Positions 765 to 36,621 of a stretch of 38,754 nt of DNA are shown piece after piece; position 1 is the first letter of the stretch, and each line of letters begins with the position of its first letter. Source of the stretch: a virus; the IMG/VR virus record IMGVR_UViG_3300013094_000127, positions 1 to 38,754 of that record; one strand, written 5' to 3'. The notes below the pieces were generated by a model. It did no database searches and was not told the origin of the DNA. It saw only the letters and a program-made list of their open reading frames with translations. Both the position numbers and the translations under genes were made by a program.

Positions 765-1619
765 TTATCGGCTGCAATGATGTATACATTCAGCGCTAGG
801 GTTATTTTCTAGTTGGTGTGCTATGTCGGGCAAGTCTTCAAAACGGTCAGCACACAGTCCGGTGTTGAGAAAACAACAAGGACTAATCTTTCCATTAGCA
901 TTCAAGTATACACTAGGTTGTGACAAATGTCGACAGTATTCGGTAGTTATAATTGGTCTAATCTTTTTATATTTGCTCATGGCATTGTCGTTGTGCCAAG
1001 TTACTATGTCAAGTTCAGCCCCAGTTTGATAGTGCCTAAACGGAAACTCTTTGCGTACATCACGCACAAATTCAAAACGCTTGAATCCTAATTTTTGACT
1101 CATGCGTATGCAGTCTTTGATTTGATGCTCGTTATGCTTCCACGGAATAAACTGCCATACTGCAACTCCTCCGGCAGACATAAAAGTTTGTGCATTAGCA
1201 AGCACAGTATCAAAGTCTGTGCCTTGTCGATAGATGCTGTGAGTGTCGGCAAGTCCGTCTAAACAAAACCATACTTCGTGATCGTGATCTTTTAAGATGT
1301 TGGCGTACTGCACCCACCAAACAGTATTGCGTAAACTGCCATTGGTTCGCACAATGATCTTTTTAGCATAGCGTTTGGCAATTTCTGTTAGCAATTTGAT
1401 GTTGTATGCAGCAATAGCGTCTCCATAAGTCCCACAAAAATCAATAGCCTCAAGGTTAGGCATTTGCTGTAGATACTGTTCAAATACTGTTTCTTTGAGA
1501 TCTTCAATCACCAACTCGGGGATAGTGCCAAACCCTCCGCGACTACGCCCGCATCCAGGGCAGGAAGCATTACATTTGGTTGTAGCCTCAACTTGTAGCC
1601 ATTTGGCGGTTGATATCAT
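765..1619 (-). CDS. Radical SAM enzyme with cysteine-rich C-terminus
   Basis: This 284-residue protein has the radical SAM signature CNASCPGC (CX3CX2C; Cys16, Cys20, Cys23), whose cysteines hold the 4Fe-4S cluster that cleaves S-adenosylmethionine. It is followed by strands typical of a partial TIM barrel (FCGTYGD, IIVRTNGS, VWFCLDGL). Six cysteines lie in the last 57 residues (229, 248, 249, 256, 278, 282), suggesting an auxiliary SPASM/twitch-like Fe-S site of the kind found in peptide- or protein-modifying radical SAM enzymes. It is wedged between gp47 (ATGA overlap at 1616-1619) and gp46 (3-base gap), which are normally adjacent partners. The radical SAM call is firm. The substrate is unknown; it lacks the short CX14C-type pattern of QueE, and peptide modification is only an inference. 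Confidence 0.85.
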   Translation of the reverse strand: MISTAKWLQVEATTKCNASCPGCGRSRGGFGTIPELVIEDLKETVFEQYLQQMPNLEAIDFCGTYGDAIAAYNIKLLTEIAKRYAKKIIVRTNGSLRNTVWWVQYANILKDHDHEVWFCLDGLADTHSIYRQGTDFDTVLANAQTFMSAGGVAVWQFIPWKHNEHQIKDCIRMSQKLGFKRFEFVRDVRKEFPFRHYQTGAELDIVTWHNDNAMSKYKKIRPIITTEYCRHLSQPSVYLNANGKISPCCFLNTGLCADRFEDLPDIAHQLENNPSAECIHHCSR

Positions 1620-2632
1620 AAGTTTCTGTAGATATCCAACAAGAGATTTTTATTGAACTTGCCGTTTTCTAGTGCAGTAAGTTGACCTGTAACAATTTGG
1701 TCAACACTTTCAAATTCAATATTGCCCTGTATTTCGTATTCGGTCAAGTCAGTGACCTTAGCAGGGATTAAGGTAAGCTCACGTAGGTTATACTGTCCTA
1801 CAAAGGTTTCTTTGATAAAGCTGGCTTCCTCGTAGCTGATATCTATGTCTAAGTTTACACGAATGTGCATGTTGGGCTGCAACATAACTTCGGTATTCTT
1901 GAGTACATCGCTCAGCTGGAATACACGATACTTTGGTTGATTAGGCCAGGCATGATACTCGGGCTCTTTGCCCCATTCTAATATGGTTAATCCTCTGTCG
2001 TCGTCTCCAGCATCAGCATAATTGTGTGGAAACGCATTGCCAATGTAGGTCACATTGTTCTTGGTTTGTCTTTTATGAAAATGCCCGGTGAACACATGTC
2101 CAAAGTGAGCAAAGTCTTCACGCTTGACGTCACCATGATCGGGCATGGCGACCATGGCATTCATTAAATAGCCCGGGAGCTCGAGGTGACCAAATATGTA
2201 GTGTCCCTTGAGCTTGTGGAGTCGTTTGTGGTCGTCTCCGCAAAGCCAAGGAGCAATAACCACATCATCAGCAACGAACCAATCGTTAACAATTTGAATA
2301 TTCGGGAGGTGACGAGCCCATTCAACTGATTGGATATCACGTTTATCGCGATAATAAAGATCATGATTGCCAGGAATGAAGTAAACACGATCAAAATTGT
2401 CATTTAGGTGTTCCAATGCCTTGAGGCTGTAGTTGAGTGTAACAATATTGATACTGGCACGATTGTTGTGCCAATCGCCAAGAAACATACAGGTTTCACA
2501 ACCTTCCTCTTTGGCCTTGGCAGTAGCCCATTTAACAAAGTTCAAACAGTCCTCGTTGTGCTGTTGACTGTTTGATTTAAGTCCAAAATGTATATCAGTA
2601 AATATTGCTGCTTTTTTAAATAGGTTAGACAT
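1616..2632 (-). CDS. 47: gp47-like recombination nuclease subunit (SbcD/Mre11-type)
   Basis: The 338-residue protein is almost exactly the length of T4 gp47 (339). It has all the calcineurin-like phosphoesterase motifs in order: DIHFG near the N-terminus, GDWHN, GNHD, GHLELPG and GHFHKRQ. These residues bind two metal ions in the Mre11/SbcD nuclease, the partner of gp46 in DNA-end resection and recombination-dependent replication. The ATG overlaps the end of the preceding sulfotransferase-like gene by 8 bases, and the stop overlaps the start of the radical SAM gene by 4 bases, so the genes are probably translationally coupled. Identification is strong. Confidence 0.95.
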   Translation of the reverse strand: MSNLFKKAAIFTDIHFGLKSNSQQHNEDCLNFVKWATAKAKEEGCETCMFLGDWHNNRASINIVTLNYSLKALEHLNDNFDRVYFIPGNHDLYYRDKRDIQSVEWARHLPNIQIVNDWFVADDVVIAPWLCGDDHKRLHKLKGHYIFGHLELPGYLMNAMVAMPDHGDVKREDFAHFGHVFTGHFHKRQTKNNVTYIGNAFPHNYADAGDDDRGLTILEWGKEPEYHAWPNQPKYRVFQLSDVLKNTEVMLQPNMHIRVNLDIDISYEEASFIKETFVGQYNLRELTLIPAKVTDLTEYEIQGNIEFESVDQIVTGQLTALENGKFNKNLLLDIYRNL

Positions 2633-30371: not shown

Positions 30372-31550
30372 ATGTCATACTTAATCAACTCAACAACTGG
30401 TCAACTGTTAATTCAACTGTTAGATGGTACAGCTGACGGTCCAGATATTAATGCTGGTGCAAATGCTACGGATTTGGACCTATTTGGTAAAAACTACCCT
30501 TTATACGGTCAATATCAAAACGAAAACTTCATCAAGCTGTTACAGAACTTTGCTAACACTATTGCACCAAGTAAACCACTACAGGGAGAACTTTGGTACG
30601 ACCTCAACGTTGGCATCTTAAAAGTCTACAACGGCACAAGTTTTATTCCAGTTAGTCCACTGTTTGTTGCTAGCTCGGCACCTACTACAACACTAGTAGG
30701 TACACAGTGGTGGGACAGCACAAACTATCAGCTAAACATGTGGAACGGTTCCGGCTGGAGCTTGATTGGTCCAGGATACAAAGCACCGGATGGTGTTAGT
30801 GGATCTATTGTTGCCGACGTACTAGACACAACATCAGCACAGCACACTATTATTAAATTTTATCACAATAATAACGTGGTAGCAGTCAGCAGCTACGATA
30901 CTGTGTTTACGCTCAATGCCTCTAACCCAATACCAGGATTCTCAACAATCTATCCTGGATTTACATTGGCCACAGGAGTAGCCAATAACCTATTCCATGG
31001 TACCGCAGTTAATGCACAACAGTTGGGCAATATTGCAGCAGTTAACTATGCTCGTAATGATATTGACAGTACTTTCTATGGTAATGTTTCAATTGGCGGC
31101 GGAAATTTAGTTATATCAACCAACAGCGGAGTTGGCACTGCTAAGATATCAAATACTGTACTAAATGGTAACGTTAGCGTTTATGCCAACATTGGCGGAG
31201 CAAGCACTCTTGCCATTAGCATTAATGGTGCTACTGGAGAAGTTACAGTCGGTACCTATACTCCAACTAATGCTTACAGTTTGACTCAAAAGACCTATGT
31301 TGATACAAACATTGCTACAGCAATCGCTCCACTAGCACCAAGCTATAGTCCTACATTTAGCGGGATACCTACAGCACCTAACGTGGCGTTGGCTAGCGCA
31401 AATACTGCACAGGTTGCATCAATGGCGTCAGTACAAAATGCTATTACTAATGGAAATACTGCACCTTGGTTAGGAAGTCAAAAGACAGTGAGCACAAGTT
31501 TACCTACTAACGGCCAAGGCAATCCTGGCGACTTTTGGTTCCAAATCTAA
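30372..31550 (+). CDS. Tail fibre-like protein, N-terminal module shared with the gene at 35353
   Basis: The 392-residue protein starts with a module (about 1-135) containing YGQYQNENFIKLLQNFANTI, LQGELWYDLNVGILKVYNG and two WWD/WNG strands. The same module opens the protein at 35353 (LLQNENFIKLLENFSNNT, LGQLWWDSANKELKVYQG). A shared middle segment follows (GFSTIYPGFTLATGV versus GLSTIYPGLNMITGI). The C-terminus instead has a fibre-like repeat region (QKTYVDTNIATAIAPLAPSY, SPTFSGIPTAPNVAL) and ends GNPGDFWFQI. It lies 3 bases after the previous gene, within one transcription unit. The N-terminal module probably anchors the fibre; this is an inference from its sharing by two proteins with different ends. 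Confidence 0.72.
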   Translation: MSYLINSTTGQLLIQLLDGTADGPDINAGANATDLDLFGKNYPLYGQYQNENFIKLLQNFANTIAPSKPLQGELWYDLNVGILKVYNGTSFIPVSPLFVASSAPTTTLVGTQWWDSTNYQLNMWNGSGWSLIGPGYKAPDGVSGSIVADVLDTTSAQHTIIKFYHNNNVVAVSSYDTVFTLNASNPIPGFSTIYPGFTLATGVANNLFHGTAVNAQQLGNIAAVNYARNDIDSTFYGNVSIGGGNLVISTNSGVGTAKISNTVLNGNVSVYANIGGASTLAISINGATGEVTVGTYTPTNAYSLTQKTYVDTNIATAIAPLAPSYSPTFSGIPTAPNVALASANTAQVASMASVQNAITNGNTAPWLGSQKTVSTSLPTNGQGNPGDFWFQI

Positions 31551-31553
31551 CAT

Positions 31554-34013
31554 ATGACTATTCCTTCAGCAGCAGCCAAATATGGTCTAGGTACCACATA
31601 CATAAACAGTGCCAATACCTACTACCCACTTAAAGGTATGTGGATTAAAAATGCAGATGGTACTTGGCATCCTGTAAAAACTGGATGGGTATGTCACGAC
31701 GACGGCTCTTGGGAAAGAATTTATCCAACTCCGGCGGGGGTGTTTACTCCCAACATACCGTTCATATCAGCCAACACGTATCAAAACCATACTGCCAATA
31801 CTACAGTTGCACTGATTACCAACACCGGGGATTATGATCTCACCATTAATTCTATCAGCATCAATGATGACGTAAACGGCAATTACACCACATTATCTAA
31901 TGTTTTTCCAAAGACACCCATTACACTAGTACCAGGGGCAACTACCACTGTCAGCACTACAATCTACGGTAATAATGTTGCAGCCAACATCAACGGTAAT
32001 CTTAGTTTTACCTTGTACACTGGACATCTTGGATATGCCAATGTGGTATATCCGGTATCTGCCAATGTGATACCAGACTATAATGGTATTGCAGCCAACA
32101 TCACTACATTTAATCTTGTTGCATACGAAGGCGACCTTACCAATGTTTACGGCAACGGAAAACCTGGCACATTCAGTTATACTGTGCCATCGGGTGTTAC
32201 TAGTATCTATGTAGAACTAGAGGGCGGTGGTGGCGGCGGTGGTGCTAGCTCTAGCAACTACCCTGGCGCATTCGGTAACCCTGGACATAAACTCTATGGC
32301 AACTTATCAGTTACAGCCGGCGATGTAATAGTAGCTAACATTGGCGGTGGCGGACAATTTGGACTAACTGGAGTCAGTGGTGCAGGTGGGGTTGGCGGCC
32401 CCAGCTATAACAGCTATGGCGGGGGCGCTGGATCAAATTCGGGGCCAAACAGCTATGGAGGCGGTGGTGGTGGTGGCGGAGCAGCGTCTGTACTACAAAA
32501 AAATGGCGCAGTGATTGCTGTAGCAGCCGGAGGCGGTGGCGGCGGTGGGGCAGGTTCAAACGGGCCAGGCAACCCGCAATCAACTTATTCTAGTTCTGGC
32601 AGCAATATTGGTGCAGTTGGCACATCTAATACCAACGTTGGCGGCGGTGCAGGTGGAGGCGGTGGCGGTAACTACGGCGGTGCAGGAGGTGCAGTACCAT
32701 CTAGTGATACGGGTGCCAACAGCGGCAGTGACGGAGCTGATCTTGTGCCTGCAAATTTTGCAGTGTCGTATGGTACTAACAATGGAACATCTGATGTTGC
32801 AAGTTACGCTGGATCATTTAAAATAATTGAAGTAGTCAAAAAACCCTACAACTATACTGGCCAAGGCCAAAATGCTTTTACTATCACTAATACTGGTAAC
32901 GGCAAAAACTTGAGTATTTCTAATTATACTAGTCAAAATGGTTACTGTGTGCCTTCTGCTTTGCCTGCTTTACCAAGTGTGGTTGGATACAATTTCTCAA
33001 CAAACACAGGAAATTCAGCAGTCATAAATCTAGGGGCTACTACTCTCCCAGCCGGGGTATATCAAGACAATTTGATAGTAACCAGTGACGCATTAAATGC
33101 AGCCAACTTGACGATTCCTGTCACGGTAAACGTACAGAAGCCCAGCGGATTTGTAGCATTTGACACTCCAGGAACCTATACTTGGAGAGTTCCGCAGCAC
33201 GTATATTTCCTTAGAATGCTCATAGTGGGCAGTGGGGGTGGCGGTGGATCTAGTGTGTCTAACTACACCGTATTACAAGGTGGTAGTGGCGGTGGTGGTG
33301 GTAGTGGCGGATACCAAACACACAAAAATTTAAAAGTTACACCCGGCGAACTTCTAACAATTACAGTTGGAGCTCCAGGCGGTACCGGCAGTCAAAACGT
33401 CAATATTTTTTATGTAACCAACTATAACAGTTCATGGAGCAGTTTCATGAACGATAATGCAGTTTGGTTTAGTCCTGACGGAGCTTCGCCAATTGGCGAC
33501 TATGTAGTATCTGATCGACAGTTTATTGCTCCAATTGCAGGCACTTACACATTTACTGCCCAAGCAGATAATAACATGTATGTGGTCGTTGACGGCACAC
33601 AGTTATTGATTGCAGGATCGGCAACTACATCAACAGTTGAAACTTTATCATTAACTCCAGGTAAACATGACATACACATGCTGTCAGTTAACTATAGTGG
33701 CACTGGTGGATTTGCACTGACAATTACAGATCCAAACTCAAACGTGATATGGACCACTAGATCTCTATTAAACCCAACAGTTGGATCTTCTGGCGGGGAC
33801 ACAATCATATCGGGCAGCTTTGGTACTTACGGTAGCACTGGTGGATCACCGGGCACTGGAGCCTATAACGACGGGGTACAACCTTCCGGATATTATTCTT
33901 ACGATGGTGGGGGCTGGGATGCTAGCACTGGCGTTGGCGTTGGTGTTGGTGTTGGCGGCAACAGTTCTGATGCGACTGGCGCTGCGAGCGGTGACGGTGG
34001 TGCATCGGCGTAA
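31554..34013 (+). CDS. Glycine-rich tail adhesin with PA14-like domain, apparently lacking its C-terminal strand
   Basis: This 819-residue protein is modular. It has an N-terminal tag (WIKNADGTWHPVKTGWV, DGSWERIYPTP) and a HYDIN/ASPM-like Ig domain (about 60-185). Glycine-rich domain 1 (about 202-425) opens with FSYTVPSGVTSIYVEL and closes with GSFKIIEVV. A second Ig-like domain (about 430-540) and glycine-rich domain 2 (about 537-819, opening YTWRVPQHVYFLRMLIVG) follow. A PA14-like beta domain is inserted in domain 2 (about 616-740; FIAPIAGTYTFTAQADNNMY, LTPGKHDIHML). Domain 2 stops inside glycine-rich sequence (SGDGGASA) without a closing strand; that strand is encoded at 35074-35319, after an oxygenase gene. 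Such glycine-rich fibre tips can bind receptors (compare the polyglycine adhesin of phage S16); PA14 domains often bind sugars. Confidence 0.75.
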   Translation: MTIPSAAAKYGLGTTYINSANTYYPLKGMWIKNADGTWHPVKTGWVCHDDGSWERIYPTPAGVFTPNIPFISANTYQNHTANTTVALITNTGDYDLTINSISINDDVNGNYTTLSNVFPKTPITLVPGATTTVSTTIYGNNVAANINGNLSFTLYTGHLGYANVVYPVSANVIPDYNGIAANITTFNLVAYEGDLTNVYGNGKPGTFSYTVPSGVTSIYVELEGGGGGGGASSSNYPGAFGNPGHKLYGNLSVTAGDVIVANIGGGGQFGLTGVSGAGGVGGPSYNSYGGGAGSNSGPNSYGGGGGGGGAASVLQKNGAVIAVAAGGGGGGGAGSNGPGNPQSTYSSSGSNIGAVGTSNTNVGGGAGGGGGGNYGGAGGAVPSSDTGANSGSDGADLVPANFAVSYGTNNGTSDVASYAGSFKIIEVVKKPYNYTGQGQNAFTITNTGNGKNLSISNYTSQNGYCVPSALPALPSVVGYNFSTNTGNSAVINLGATTLPAGVYQDNLIVTSDALNAANLTIPVTVNVQKPSGFVAFDTPGTYTWRVPQHVYFLRMLIVGSGGGGGSSVSNYTVLQGGSGGGGGSGGYQTHKNLKVTPGELLTITVGAPGGTGSQNVNIFYVTNYNSSWSSFMNDNAVWFSPDGASPIGDYVVSDRQFIAPIAGTYTFTAQADNNMYVVVDGTQLLIAGSATTSTVETLSLTPGKHDIHMLSVNYSGTGGFALTITDPNSNVIWTTRSLLNPTVGSSGGDTIISGSFGTYGSTGGSPGTGAYNDGVQPSGYYSYDGGGWDASTGVGVGVGVGGNSSDATGAASGDGGASA

Positions 34014-34030
34014 CAATTAATCGAGCAAGC

Positions 34031-35062
34031 ATGGACATTCAAACATTTGATAATTTTCTACCTGAAGAAATTTTGGTAGAAATTAATCAGAATATTTCTC
34101 AACACGGATTCCGCTACGGTTGGCAAAGCATCAACTCTCGCGATCAATCAATTCCCTACGCACATTGGAACAACACATTTGCTGGAGTTGATGCAGAAAA
34201 CGGACTTGATCTCAGCAACAAGCTAGATGGTGCTATTGCAAAAGCGTGGGAACATATTAGGTCTACTTACTGCCCCGGAGCGTCATTGGTTAGATGTTAC
34301 ATGAACGCACATACCTATGGCGTTGAGGGTTATCCACATACAGATACTATACGCAACGGGCACACAGTCTTGGTATATCTAAACGATGTATGGAAACGAG
34401 AATGGGGCGGCGAAACCATGTTCTATGACAAGGACACAGTACTGTATGCAGAACTACCTAAAAGAAATAAAGGTTTGATTTTTGATGGTAAAATATGTCA
34501 TGTAGCCAAAGGCGTCACACGACTGTGTCCTAGTCTCAGAGTCACGCTGATGTTTAAGATTACCAAGCAGGACGATATAGATAGTGATCGAGATCGACTA
34601 CAGGAATTTTTAATGTCAATTAAGGCAGACACTGGTCCACATGCAAACAACAGTAGCCTATTGGGACATCTTCTACGCACATACGACTATTTAAAAGCCA
34701 TTGGGCAACCTCAGTATGTTTGCAATGCAGGCGCGATACACAGCATTTTTGGCACAAATTTATACCAATGGAAAGATCGATTGGACTACAGCGAGCGAGA
34801 TCGCGTGGCAGCAGCTGCCGGGGAAGATGCTACTAGACTGGCAGAAATTTTTAGCAAAGTACCGCGCCCTGCAGCAATTGAATCAGCACTGAAACAGTTT
34901 ACTGGAAAATTATTAGCCTTGTCTGGCCCAGCAATTGAAATAACTCAACTTGATCTAAATGATCTTGCTGCCATCGAGGGCGCAAATTTAAGAGATCAAT
35001 CAGCATTTGGAAATCATTACCCAATGCTTAAAGATTACTGGACTGAATTAAATAACAAATAA
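34031..35062 (+). CDS. 2OG-Fe(II) oxygenase fused to an HD-like (DUF6817-type) domain
   Basis: Residues 1-180 form a prolyl-4-hydroxylase-type 2-oxoglutarate/Fe(II) dioxygenase. The HxD iron ligands are His103 and Asp105 (GYPHTDT), followed by the strand TVLVYLNDVW and WGGETMFYD. The distal iron ligand is His157 (DGKICHVAKG), with Arg170 the likely 2-oxoglutarate-binding residue (SLRVTLMFK). The C-terminal half (about 190-343) has PHANNSSLLGHLLRTYDYL, then CNAGAIHSIFGT, and DRVAAAAGEDATRLAEIF. This His pattern resembles the HD-like DUF6817 family. The oxygenase call is firm, the second domain fairly good by eye. The gene sits between the two halves of a glycine-rich adhesin, 17 bases after one and 11 before the other. 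Substrate unknown: a fibre protein, a nucleotide or a small molecule are all possible. Confidence 0.83.
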   Translation: MDIQTFDNFLPEEILVEINQNISQHGFRYGWQSINSRDQSIPYAHWNNTFAGVDAENGLDLSNKLDGAIAKAWEHIRSTYCPGASLVRCYMNAHTYGVEGYPHTDTIRNGHTVLVYLNDVWKREWGGETMFYDKDTVLYAELPKRNKGLIFDGKICHVAKGVTRLCPSLRVTLMFKITKQDDIDSDRDRLQEFLMSIKADTGPHANNSSLLGHLLRTYDYLKAIGQPQYVCNAGAIHSIFGTNLYQWKDRLDYSERDRVAAAAGEDATRLAEIFSKVPRPAAIESALKQFTGKLLALSGPAIEITQLDLNDLAAIEGANLRDQSAFGNHYPMLKDYWTELNNK

Positions 35063-35066
35063 GGAG
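35061..35066 (+). promoter_or_regulatory. Strong Shine-Dalgarno for the 81-residue glycine-rich gene
   Basis: AAGGAG overlaps the stop codon of the oxygenase gene and lies 7 bases before the ATG at 35074. It is one of the few strong Shine-Dalgarno sites on the plus strand and indicates that this small gene is translated as a separate protein. Confidence 0.7.
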
Positions 35067-35073
35067 AATTATC

Positions 35074-35319
35074 ATGGCAGGTGGAACAGGTGGAGCAGGC
35101 GGTAGCCCAAACGGGGCAGCTGGAGCAAACGGACAAACTCAACCGCAGGGTACACAGAATGCTACTGCGGGCGGAGCAGGTGGCGACAACAAAGCTACAA
35201 TAACTTTTGGCACTACTGTACTTGGTCCCTACGGACAGGGCGGCAACGGTGCAGATGTAGGGCGATCACAGGGCAGCGACGGCAACCCTGGAGCAGTTGT
35301 AATAATCTGGGGTGACTAA
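35074..35319 (+). CDS. Small glycine-rich protein, likely detached C-terminus of the adhesin
   Basis: The protein has 81 residues, about a third of them Gly. It runs from MAGGTGGAGGSPNGAAGANG through ATITFGTTVLGPYGQGG to the closing strand GAVVIIWGD. That ending is typical of the last strand of glycine-rich phage fibre domains and is exactly what the adhesin at 31554-34013 lacks. The gene has its own strong Shine-Dalgarno site and start. It may pair with the truncated adhesin to complete the domain, or it may be a relic of a longer gene interrupted by the oxygenase gene. It lies in a different reading frame from both neighbours. Confidence 0.65.
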   Translation: MAGGTGGAGGSPNGAAGANGQTQPQGTQNATAGGAGGDNKATITFGTTVLGPYGQGGNGADVGRSQGSDGNPGAVVIIWGD

Positions 35320-35320
35320 G

Positions 35321-35328
35321 GATAAATA
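35321..35328 (+). promoter_or_regulatory. T4-type late promoter (GATAAATA)
   Basis: The box lies two bases after the previous gene's end and 24 bases before the ATG at 35353. It matches the late consensus at 7 of 8 positions. Its leader carries AACGGA (35337-35342), 10 bases before the start codon. Confidence 0.75.
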
Positions 35329-35352
35329 AGTAAAGAAACGGAAATTTAATTC

Positions 35353-36621
35353 ATGTCCTACACTATTACGTTGACAAACGGCACAGCCCTACTATCTCTA
35401 GCTGATGGTACACAAGATTCTAATACTACGAGTCTAAATCTTATTGGCCGCAACTTTTCAGGTTTTGGACTATTACAAAACGAAAATTTTATTAAATTAC
35501 TTGAAAATTTTTCTAACAATACTGCACCAACTAATCCTTTACTAGGACAGCTTTGGTGGGACAGCGCCAACAAAGAACTGAAAGTATATCAAGGCAGTAA
35601 CAACTGGAAAGTCATCAGTAATAGTCAAACTGGCACTACCCCTCCAGTCAATCCTGTAACAGGTGACTTTTGGTGGAATACTGGCAGTACAGGACAATTA
35701 AACGTTTGGAGCGGAACACAGTGGGTTAGCATTGGGCCAGCAACCCCTCCAGGCGCAGCACAAACATCGCTACAGGCATTTACAGTATCTGACGGGGTAG
35801 CGCCTCACTATGTTGGTAACATCACAGTCAACAACAAGTTAACAGGTATTTTTAGCAGCGACTCGACAGCATTTAATCCAGCTACACCAAGTCAGACCGG
35901 CGGACTGTCTACAATCTACCCTGGATTGAATATGATTACTGGCATAGTATCAGCTGGTGATATAACAACAGCCGGTAATGTCTTTGCTACCAATGTTTCA
36001 GCTTCTAATTCTACAATATCGGGCAATTTGAGAGTTTCAAATATTTCTGTTGGTGGATCATTGAATGTAAGTGGTAATGTTACTTTTACTGGAAACTTGA
36101 CTTTCCCAACAAATTCTACTACATTTAGTAATATCAGTTCAAGCATTACACCTAGTGCAAACTTGAGCTATAATTTAGGCAGTATCACCAATTGGTGGAA
36201 TAATATCTACGGAACAAGTATTCACGCACAGTACGCTGACTTGGCAGAACGATTTGAAGCAGATGCAGTATATGATCCTGGCACAGTGGTTGAACTAGGC
36301 GGATCTGCTGAAATTACTGCTGCGGTAGATGATTTAAGCGAAGATGTGTTTGGAGTCATAAGTACTAGAGCAGCCTTTGTTATGAATAGCCGTGTAGGCG
36401 ACGATTTAACTCATCCCCCAATTGCAGTACAAGGACGTGTTCCGGTTAAAGTAATTGGTACAGTACGCAAAGGCGACCGTCTAGTTAGCGCGGGAAATGG
36501 TTTTGCTAGAGCAGGATTACGCAGTGAAATTACCACTTGGAATGTAATCGGGCGTAGTTTAGAAAATAAAACAACAATCGGCGAAGGTGTAGTTGAAGCC
36601 GTAGTGAAATTGAATTCATAA
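35353..36621 (+). CDS. Chimeric tail fibre protein sharing both ends with neighbouring fibres
   Basis: The 422-residue protein has the same N-terminal module as the protein at 30372 (LLQNENFIKLLENFSNNT, LWWDSANKELKVYQG). It has the same C-terminal domain as the protein at 28391 (YGTSIHAQYADLAERFEAD, PGTVVELGG, GVISTRAAFVMN, GRVPVKVIGTVRKGDRLV). Between them is a Ser/Asn/Thr-rich shaft with short repeated strands (about 200-280). It is thus a mosaic of two paralogous neighbours and shows how fibre modules have been exchanged. It is transcribed from its own late promoter. Role: virion fibre; receptor unknown. Confidence 0.78.
   Translation: MSYTITLTNGTALLSLADGTQDSNTTSLNLIGRNFSGFGLLQNENFIKLLENFSNNTAPTNPLLGQLWWDSANKELKVYQGSNNWKVISNSQTGTTPPVNPVTGDFWWNTGSTGQLNVWSGTQWVSIGPATPPGAAQTSLQAFTVSDGVAPHYVGNITVNNKLTGIFSSDSTAFNPATPSQTGGLSTIYPGLNMITGIVSAGDITTAGNVFATNVSASNSTISGNLRVSNISVGGSLNVSGNVTFTGNLTFPTNSTTFSNISSSITPSANLSYNLGSITNWWNNIYGTSIHAQYADLAERFEADAVYDPGTVVELGGSAEITAAVDDLSEDVFGVISTRAAFVMNSRVGDDLTHPPIAVQGRVPVKVIGTVRKGDRLVSAGNGFARAGLRSEITTWNVIGRSLENKTTIGEGVVEAVVKLNS

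Follow-up and report, generated by a model that had tools for sequence, protein, structure and literature searches.

A phage tail-fiber adhesin whose second glycine-rich domain is probably completed by a small protein encoded beyond an oxygenase gene

Phage adhesins are usually seen as using one chain per domain. Splitting of phage genes by inteins and introns is known, and in fractured genes with split inteins a gene is present in two parts with another gene between them. The gp38 adhesin of T2-type phages and phage S16 offers a glycine-rich receptor-binding domain at the fiber tip, with constant glycine-rich motifs and variable loops (PMC12892980). Here, we describe a tail-fiber adhesin locus on IMG/VR virus record IMGVR_UViG_3300013094_000127, analyzed over positions 1 to 38,754 (the window, 38,754 nucleotides). 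The second of two glycine-rich domains of this adhesin appears to be distributed over two genes, separated by a gene for a putative 2-oxoglutarate (2OG)-Fe(II) oxygenase.

The locus can be best explained by a conserved two-chain tip domain with a junction that accepts exchangeable modules, a reading that we consider probable. It is favored because the small protein supplies the part missing from the adhesin, unsplit relatives exist and the split is conserved. The adhesin, oxygenase and small-protein genes lie in three different reading frames, separated by 17 bases (adhesin to oxygenase) and 11 bases (oxygenase to small gene); these gaps and the gene coordinates agree with a preliminary description of this DNA.

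31554..34013, plus strand: tail-fiber adhesin, the N-chain (819 amino acids), with a conserved N-terminal part and two glycine-rich domains, the second left open
32163..32843, plus strand: first glycine-rich domain, complete (about residues 204-430), from a Pfam Gly_rich_2 match at 204-396 and alignment with relative L007
33162..33392, plus strand: second glycine-rich domain, opening part, beginning at residue 537; a seven-lineage profile of it matches the first part of unsplit domains
33393..33788, plus strand: PA14-like insert in the second glycine-rich domain (about residues 614-745), from a weak PA14 match (E=0.022)
33789..34010, plus strand: last stretch of the N-chain before the cut, glycine-rich and ending GDGGASA, from the sequence and comparison with relatives
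34031..35062, plus strand: 2OG-Fe(II) oxygenase-DUF6817 protein (343 amino acids; PF13640 E=1.5e-7, PF20680 E=1.1e-14), starting 17 bases after the adhesin stop
35061..35066, plus strand: Shine-Dalgarno sequence AAGGAG that precedes the small gene and overlaps the stop codon of the oxygenase, read from the sequence, with similar sites before the small gene in relatives
35074..35319, plus strand: small glycine-rich protein (81 amino acids), the putative C-chain with the closing part of the second domain, from a nine-protein profile and substitution rates

The adhesin matches Pfam Gly_rich_2 (PF21722) in two stretches, at 35.7 bits over a curated cut-off of 24.3 (E=1.2e-8). The first domain opens with FSYTVPSGV and ends with GSFKIIEVV; the second opens with YTWRVPQHV and continues into glycine-rich sequence without a closing strand. 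Matches and end sequences thus bear out the preliminary description of one complete and one open domain, which was right about the open end and overlooked the PA14-like insert before the cut. This insert is kept in L007 and L014 and shares 31-34% identity with its counterparts in L025 and L026 (relatives are given by locus label). In the window and its split relatives alike, opening and closing of the second domain are never on one chain, and the closing part is found only in the small gene. The first, complete domain of the window adhesin is an extra one, absent from L007 and L030.

Across seven lineages, the small protein begins MAGGxGGxGGSPxG and carries a closing strand at its end (e.g., GNPGAVVIIWG). 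A Pfam search with the 81-residue protein alone returned no family match. Its gene has its own strong Shine-Dalgarno sequence, as previously noted, and in most lineages a GGAG-type ribosome-binding site precedes it. It is under purifying selection, with nonsynonymous rates (dN) of 0.26-0.35 against synonymous rates (dS) of ~ 0.9 to > 2.

Unsplit relatives allow for a direct comparison. The search for an unsplit homologue that the preliminary description proposed yielded four single-chain relatives with partial synteny. In L038 and L041, an adhesin with the same N-terminal part is one chain that ends directly before the conserved downstream gene. In L026, from a related fiber cluster, one chain holds the same domain, the PA14-like insert and then glycine-rich sequence with a closing strand, and L109 displays the canonical unsplit domain. 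A profile of the N-part from the seven lineages matches L109 at residues 5-99, L038 at 7-129 and L026 at 3-99, with 0 of 300 shuffles as good in each case. A profile of nine small proteins matches the same chains at 68-171, 133-243 and 256-350, respectively, ending at the closing strand. Run without the HMMER composition correction, none of 500 composition-preserving shuffles scored as well for any of the three unsplit domains. Matches of the two profiles do not overlap in L038 and L026, and the small-protein profile gave no match above chance to the N-chains. The comparison supports the small protein, judged at the level of sequence, as the missing closing part of the second domain, as had been expected from the window alone.

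The same cut occurs in related phages. Relatives of the small gene were collected via a degenerate DNA pattern for the gene start; because this pattern required an ATG start, we additionally took the conserved downstream gene as bait for a split-neutral search. The cut is common to seven lineages (window, L007, L030, L027, L035, L033 and L014), and an analogous cut is present in two more distant phages, L105 and L071. In a motif scan of the fetched loci, all short orphan closing halves lie a few genes after an adhesin with an open last glycine-rich domain; the scan missed two closing halves, in L027 and L105, that were identified by eye. A tblastn search against annotated phages found relatives of neither the adhesin nor the small protein. 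L007 and L030 are among the nearest relatives found, with oxygenases 57% and 60% and small proteins ~ 67% and 69% identical to those of the window. The respective values are 45% and 53% for L027, and 42% and 44% for L035. Despite this divergence, gene order is the same in all four. Since the arrangement recurs where small proteins are just 44-69% identical and the small gene is under purifying selection, it is not a product of chance; recurring across lineages, the cut is also more general than a reading of the single window suggested. The split-locus adhesin of L035 (L035:5797-9249) carries a subtilase domain (Peptidase_S8, E=4e-18) in its N-terminal part, placing a protease on a tail-fiber protein.

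The content of the gap differs between lineages: the oxygenase in five, the oxygenase plus two genes in one, a helical domain plus a small gene in two, and a Hint-like domain plus another gene in one. As gap content varies while the cut stays, a conserved and selected two-chain domain is indicated rather than a recent accident. L014 and L033 keep the cut with no oxygenase at the locus, and the whole L014 contig gave no match to it. The N-chain of L014 continues into a helical domain (SIICTKLHELGY...), a label judged from sequence here and below, followed by a 109-residue gene and a small gene with an extra hydrophobic insert. This closing-half protein (L014:11148-11588) contains an inserted stretch of ~ 57 residues that includes a hydrophobic segment. 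In L033, the N-chain continues into Hint-like sequence (GGGGCFLPHTLIRMADGTEKP...; Pfam Hint E=0.006, under the curated cut-off), with a 155-residue gene next and then the small gene. Each half in L105 has its own copy of the helical domain, identical at 152 of 175 aligned positions. A small related gene follows each of these near-identical C-terminal domains (L105:3159-6899), apparently a tandem duplication of the module. L071 has three genes in the cut, the last from the same oxygenase family as that of the window, and then a 78-residue closing half. One of the genes between its halves (L071:4377-5492) resembles a PP-loop ATPase (SGGIDSS motif) without a Pfam match, and a similar gene is also found near an oxygenase homologue in L003. 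The helical domain with its partner gene also occurs at fiber-protein ends in the cultured cyanophage SynMITS9220M01 and in L025 and L057. A glycine-rich fiber protein in L065 (L065:2658-4859) has two successive Hint-type stretches (Hom_end_hint E=5e-15).

Trees provide a view of the order of events. The flanking tree, built from three conserved regions (841 positions) and rooted on two unsplit relatives, separates (L035, L027) from (L014, L033) and (L030, L007, window), with L014 and L033 grouped at 84% support. In the oxygenase tree, the window, L007 and L030 stand apart from L027, L035 and L071 at 99%. On the simplest reading of these trees, the cut would be older than these lineages, with the oxygenase there early and replaced in L014 and L033; independent gains of the oxygenase at one place are possible. 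The preliminary description had offered, as one of two options, that a cargo gene broke the adhesin. As worded, this is not supported: the cut seems to predate the cargo now found there and is retained where the cargo is different. A recent break by the oxygenase gene was likewise rejected: the cut is common to lineages with other cargo, and the small proteins are just 44-69% identical.

Several observations weigh against the two-chain reading. With the HMMER composition correction, scores of the small-protein profile are near zero or negative and non-significant; the evidence therefore consists of the shuffle comparison and the position of the matches. The N-part and small-protein matches overlap in L109, and no small-protein match was seen at the end of the unsplit relative L041. 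Pairing of the opening and closing strands is not established structurally, since the AlphaFold model of the unsplit domain is poor (predicted local distance difference test, pLDDT, of 50). The node that nests the oxygenase-free L014 and L033 among oxygenase lineages has 77% support, and single-gene trees are weaker. Contact between N-chain and C-chain is likewise something that we infer. The two-chain tip of the preliminary description has thus gained complementary halves, unsplit relatives and a conserved split, with physical association of the halves still a matter of inference, as are the loop position of the cut and the activity of the enzyme.

In the proposed two-chain arrangement, the N-chain would supply the opening strands, the first glycine-rich block and the PA14-like insert of the Gly_rich_2 domain, and the separately translated small protein would supply the last glycine-rich blocks and the closing beta-strand. 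Both would be translated from one late mRNA and then, most likely, pair non-covalently as neighboring strands of a polyglycine-type lattice. Among the solved-structure matches listed from a sequence search, gp38 (the polyglycine II sandwich known from S16 and PP01) is absent, and the AlphaFold model available for a lattice comparison reaches a pLDDT of only 50. The cut probably lies in a loop that acts as a docking site for alternative modules: the oxygenase-DUF6817 gene by itself or accompanied by two more, a C-terminal helical domain together with its partner gene, or a Hint-like domain and one further gene. In the window phage, the module is an enzyme with the predicted fold of protein prolyl 4-hydroxylases, and its translation is apparently coupled to that of the adhesin.

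The preliminary description called the intervening gene a hydroxylase-type oxygenase, which Pfam matches, fold and conserved ligands confirm. Probable metal ligands H103, D105 and H157 and the probable 2OG-binding R170, with roles assigned from the known family motif (HxD...H metal triad, distal Arg), are invariant in an alignment of eight homologues. The AlphaFold model (pLDDT 84.7) gives residues 1-199 a protein prolyl 4-hydroxylase fold. Foldseek places the model close to PHD2 (E ~ 1e-8), and VIA-align of residues 1-199 yields Z ~ 17 to both PHD2 and the Pseudomonas putida prolyl 4-hydroxylase (root-mean-square deviation 2.7-3.9 over 150-180 residues). Other structural matches are OGFOD1 (4nhy), the PBCV-1 viral prolyl hydroxylase and a bacterial prolyl hydroxylase solved with EF-Tu (4iw3). 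The gene is under purifying selection. No Shine-Dalgarno sequence is visible before it in the window, L007, L030 and L035, and in L027 its frame has a GTG overlapping the adhesin stop; together, these features suggest translational coupling to the adhesin. The closest oxygenases of annotated phages (tblastn) are distant cyanophage ones, with ~ 30% identity over half of the protein. As homologues adjoin clamp-loader genes (identified from their sequence) in other phages, the family is not tied to adhesins. PHROG 274 ('DNA endonuclease V') matches window 34031-34579, the oxygenase part, and homologues in cyanophage annotations bear the same name. No endonuclease V match is listed for the protein, and both Pfam and the fold assign the matched region to the 2OG oxygenases, so this name looks like a mislabel. 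DUF6817 is not mentioned in the literature searched, and no paper was found linking glycine-rich fibers with 2OG oxygenases or prolyl hydroxylases with phage fibers.

What the enzyme modifies can be viewed in two ways, both compatible with a two-chain tip. It may be cargo with a host target, for example EF-Tu or a ribosomal protein, and sit in a tolerant site of a strong late operon, a tentative reading that we place slightly below an even chance. The structural matches to OGFOD1 and to the hydroxylase solved with EF-Tu fit with it, as do homologues at unrelated loci and unrelated genes in the gap of other lineages; cyanophage 2OG oxygenases have been discussed as auxiliary metabolic genes (PMC9602691). 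Yet the same enzyme family at the same cut in strongly different lineages is unexpected for random cargo. Alternatively, the oxygenase might be a maturation enzyme of the tip that hydroxylates prolines, or residues of another kind, in either the adhesin or the small protein. This would account for its place inside the adhesin operon, but we regard it as doubtful. Action of the enzyme on the adhesin, one of two options in the preliminary description, draws on linkage, apparent coupling and the prolyl-4-hydroxylase fold, with a viral collagen prolyl hydroxylase among the matches, and the enzyme is kept in five lineages and L071. Candidate sites are prolines in the N-chain tail before the cut and an X-Pro-Gly of the small protein, which reads GNPG in four oxygenase lineages and GRPG in the remaining one of the five. 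However, both kinds of site are also present in lineages without the enzyme, L014 and L033 keep both cut and PG motifs with no oxygenase at the locus, homologues lie beside clamp-loader genes away from adhesins, and a fold does not name a substrate. Since the cut persists without the enzyme, action on the tip is possible but on balance not what we expect.

Three further explanations concern the halves themselves. One is that the small protein lies outside the tip domain, either as a glycine-rich protein in its own right or as a decaying remnant. Its own strong Shine-Dalgarno sequence and start codon and its lack of a Pfam match would agree with this, but we judge it very unlikely: at each locus seen the small protein comes after an open adhesin, it matches the closing part of unsplit domains, it retains the closing strand at its end in every lineage, and it is under purifying selection. 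Another is that the halves are rejoined, whether ahead of or during translation (intron, ribosomal bypass) or through protein splicing (split intein), as the Hint-like sequence at the cut of L033 might suggest. Against this, only 17 and 11 bases are non-coding, the three genes use different frames, and in every lineage the small gene has an ATG and a Shine-Dalgarno sequence and leads straight into glycine-rich sequence without a C-intein, which makes rejoining extremely unlikely. A search of 33400-35500 gave no intron family match with E<=1, neither group I nor group II, and with this match absent an intron or RNA-level rejoining was rejected. A split intein in the window was rejected as well; Pfam finds no Hint match in its N-chain, and plain glycine-rich sequence makes up both the N-chain tail and the beginning of the small gene. 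The cut might also be a chemical assembly point, with the tip matured at a Cys by autocleavage, thioester chemistry or joining to another chain, and the oxygenase and other modules as alternative devices that mature a two-chain tip. N-chains of relatives end in GDGGC, GGGGC, GTGDC or GGGGD, or continue into the Hint-like or helical domain; the Cys (after Gly or Asp) is terminal in L007, L030 and L035, and in L007 and L030 it is the sole cysteine of the adhesin. In L033, the matching Cys, after GGGG, opens the Hint-like sequence. Given the cysteine frequency of these adhesins, the probability of finding terminal cysteines in three of five by chance is P ~ 5e-8, a value from non-independent lineages and a test chosen post hoc. 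The window N-chain ends in GASA, and we consider a chemical assembly point unlikely.

The adhesin sits in a tail-fiber and baseplate region, with fiber-type proteins as neighbors on both sides and, upstream, genes matching the baseplate proteins gp53 and gp25 and a baseplate OB-domain protein.

30372..31550, plus strand: tail-fiber gene directly upstream of the adhesin, kept in syntenic relatives
35353..36621, plus strand: tail-fiber gene directly downstream of the small gene, kept in syntenic relatives and the anchor of the split-neutral search

On the minus strand, at window 765-2632, radical-SAM-like and metallophosphoesterase-like proteins adjoin each other before the tail genes.

If the two-chain reading is true, a receptor-binding domain made by two genes has been kept for long, and a junction that takes up enzymes and domains would represent a route to tip diversity with the fold retained. 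It would also give the first concrete substrate hypothesis for one family of 2OG oxygenases, enzymes that are common but unexplained in aquatic phages.

Compared with known systems, the oxygenase resembles PHD2, bacterial prolyl 4-hydroxylase and the PBCV-1 viral prolyl hydroxylase in predicted fold and conserved metal ligands, but differs from known prolyl 4-hydroxylases in its extra DUF6817 domain and its place inside an adhesin operon. The second glycine-rich domain has the same kind of opening strand as Pfam Gly_rich_2 (PF21722), with a match over the curated cut-off; unlike in that family, its closing strand is encoded by another gene. A two-part gene with another gene between is shared with fractured genes that use split inteins, whereas in the window intein halves are absent at the cut, the cargo is not an endonuclease and the pieces presumably assemble without splicing. 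The locus may resemble the gp38 system of T2-type phages and S16 (PMC12892980), in which a glycine-rich receptor-binding domain likewise sits at a tip built from more than one gene product. In the gp38 system, however, the complete domain is a separate protein on gp37, while in the window one domain appears to be split over two chains, with an enzyme gene between them.

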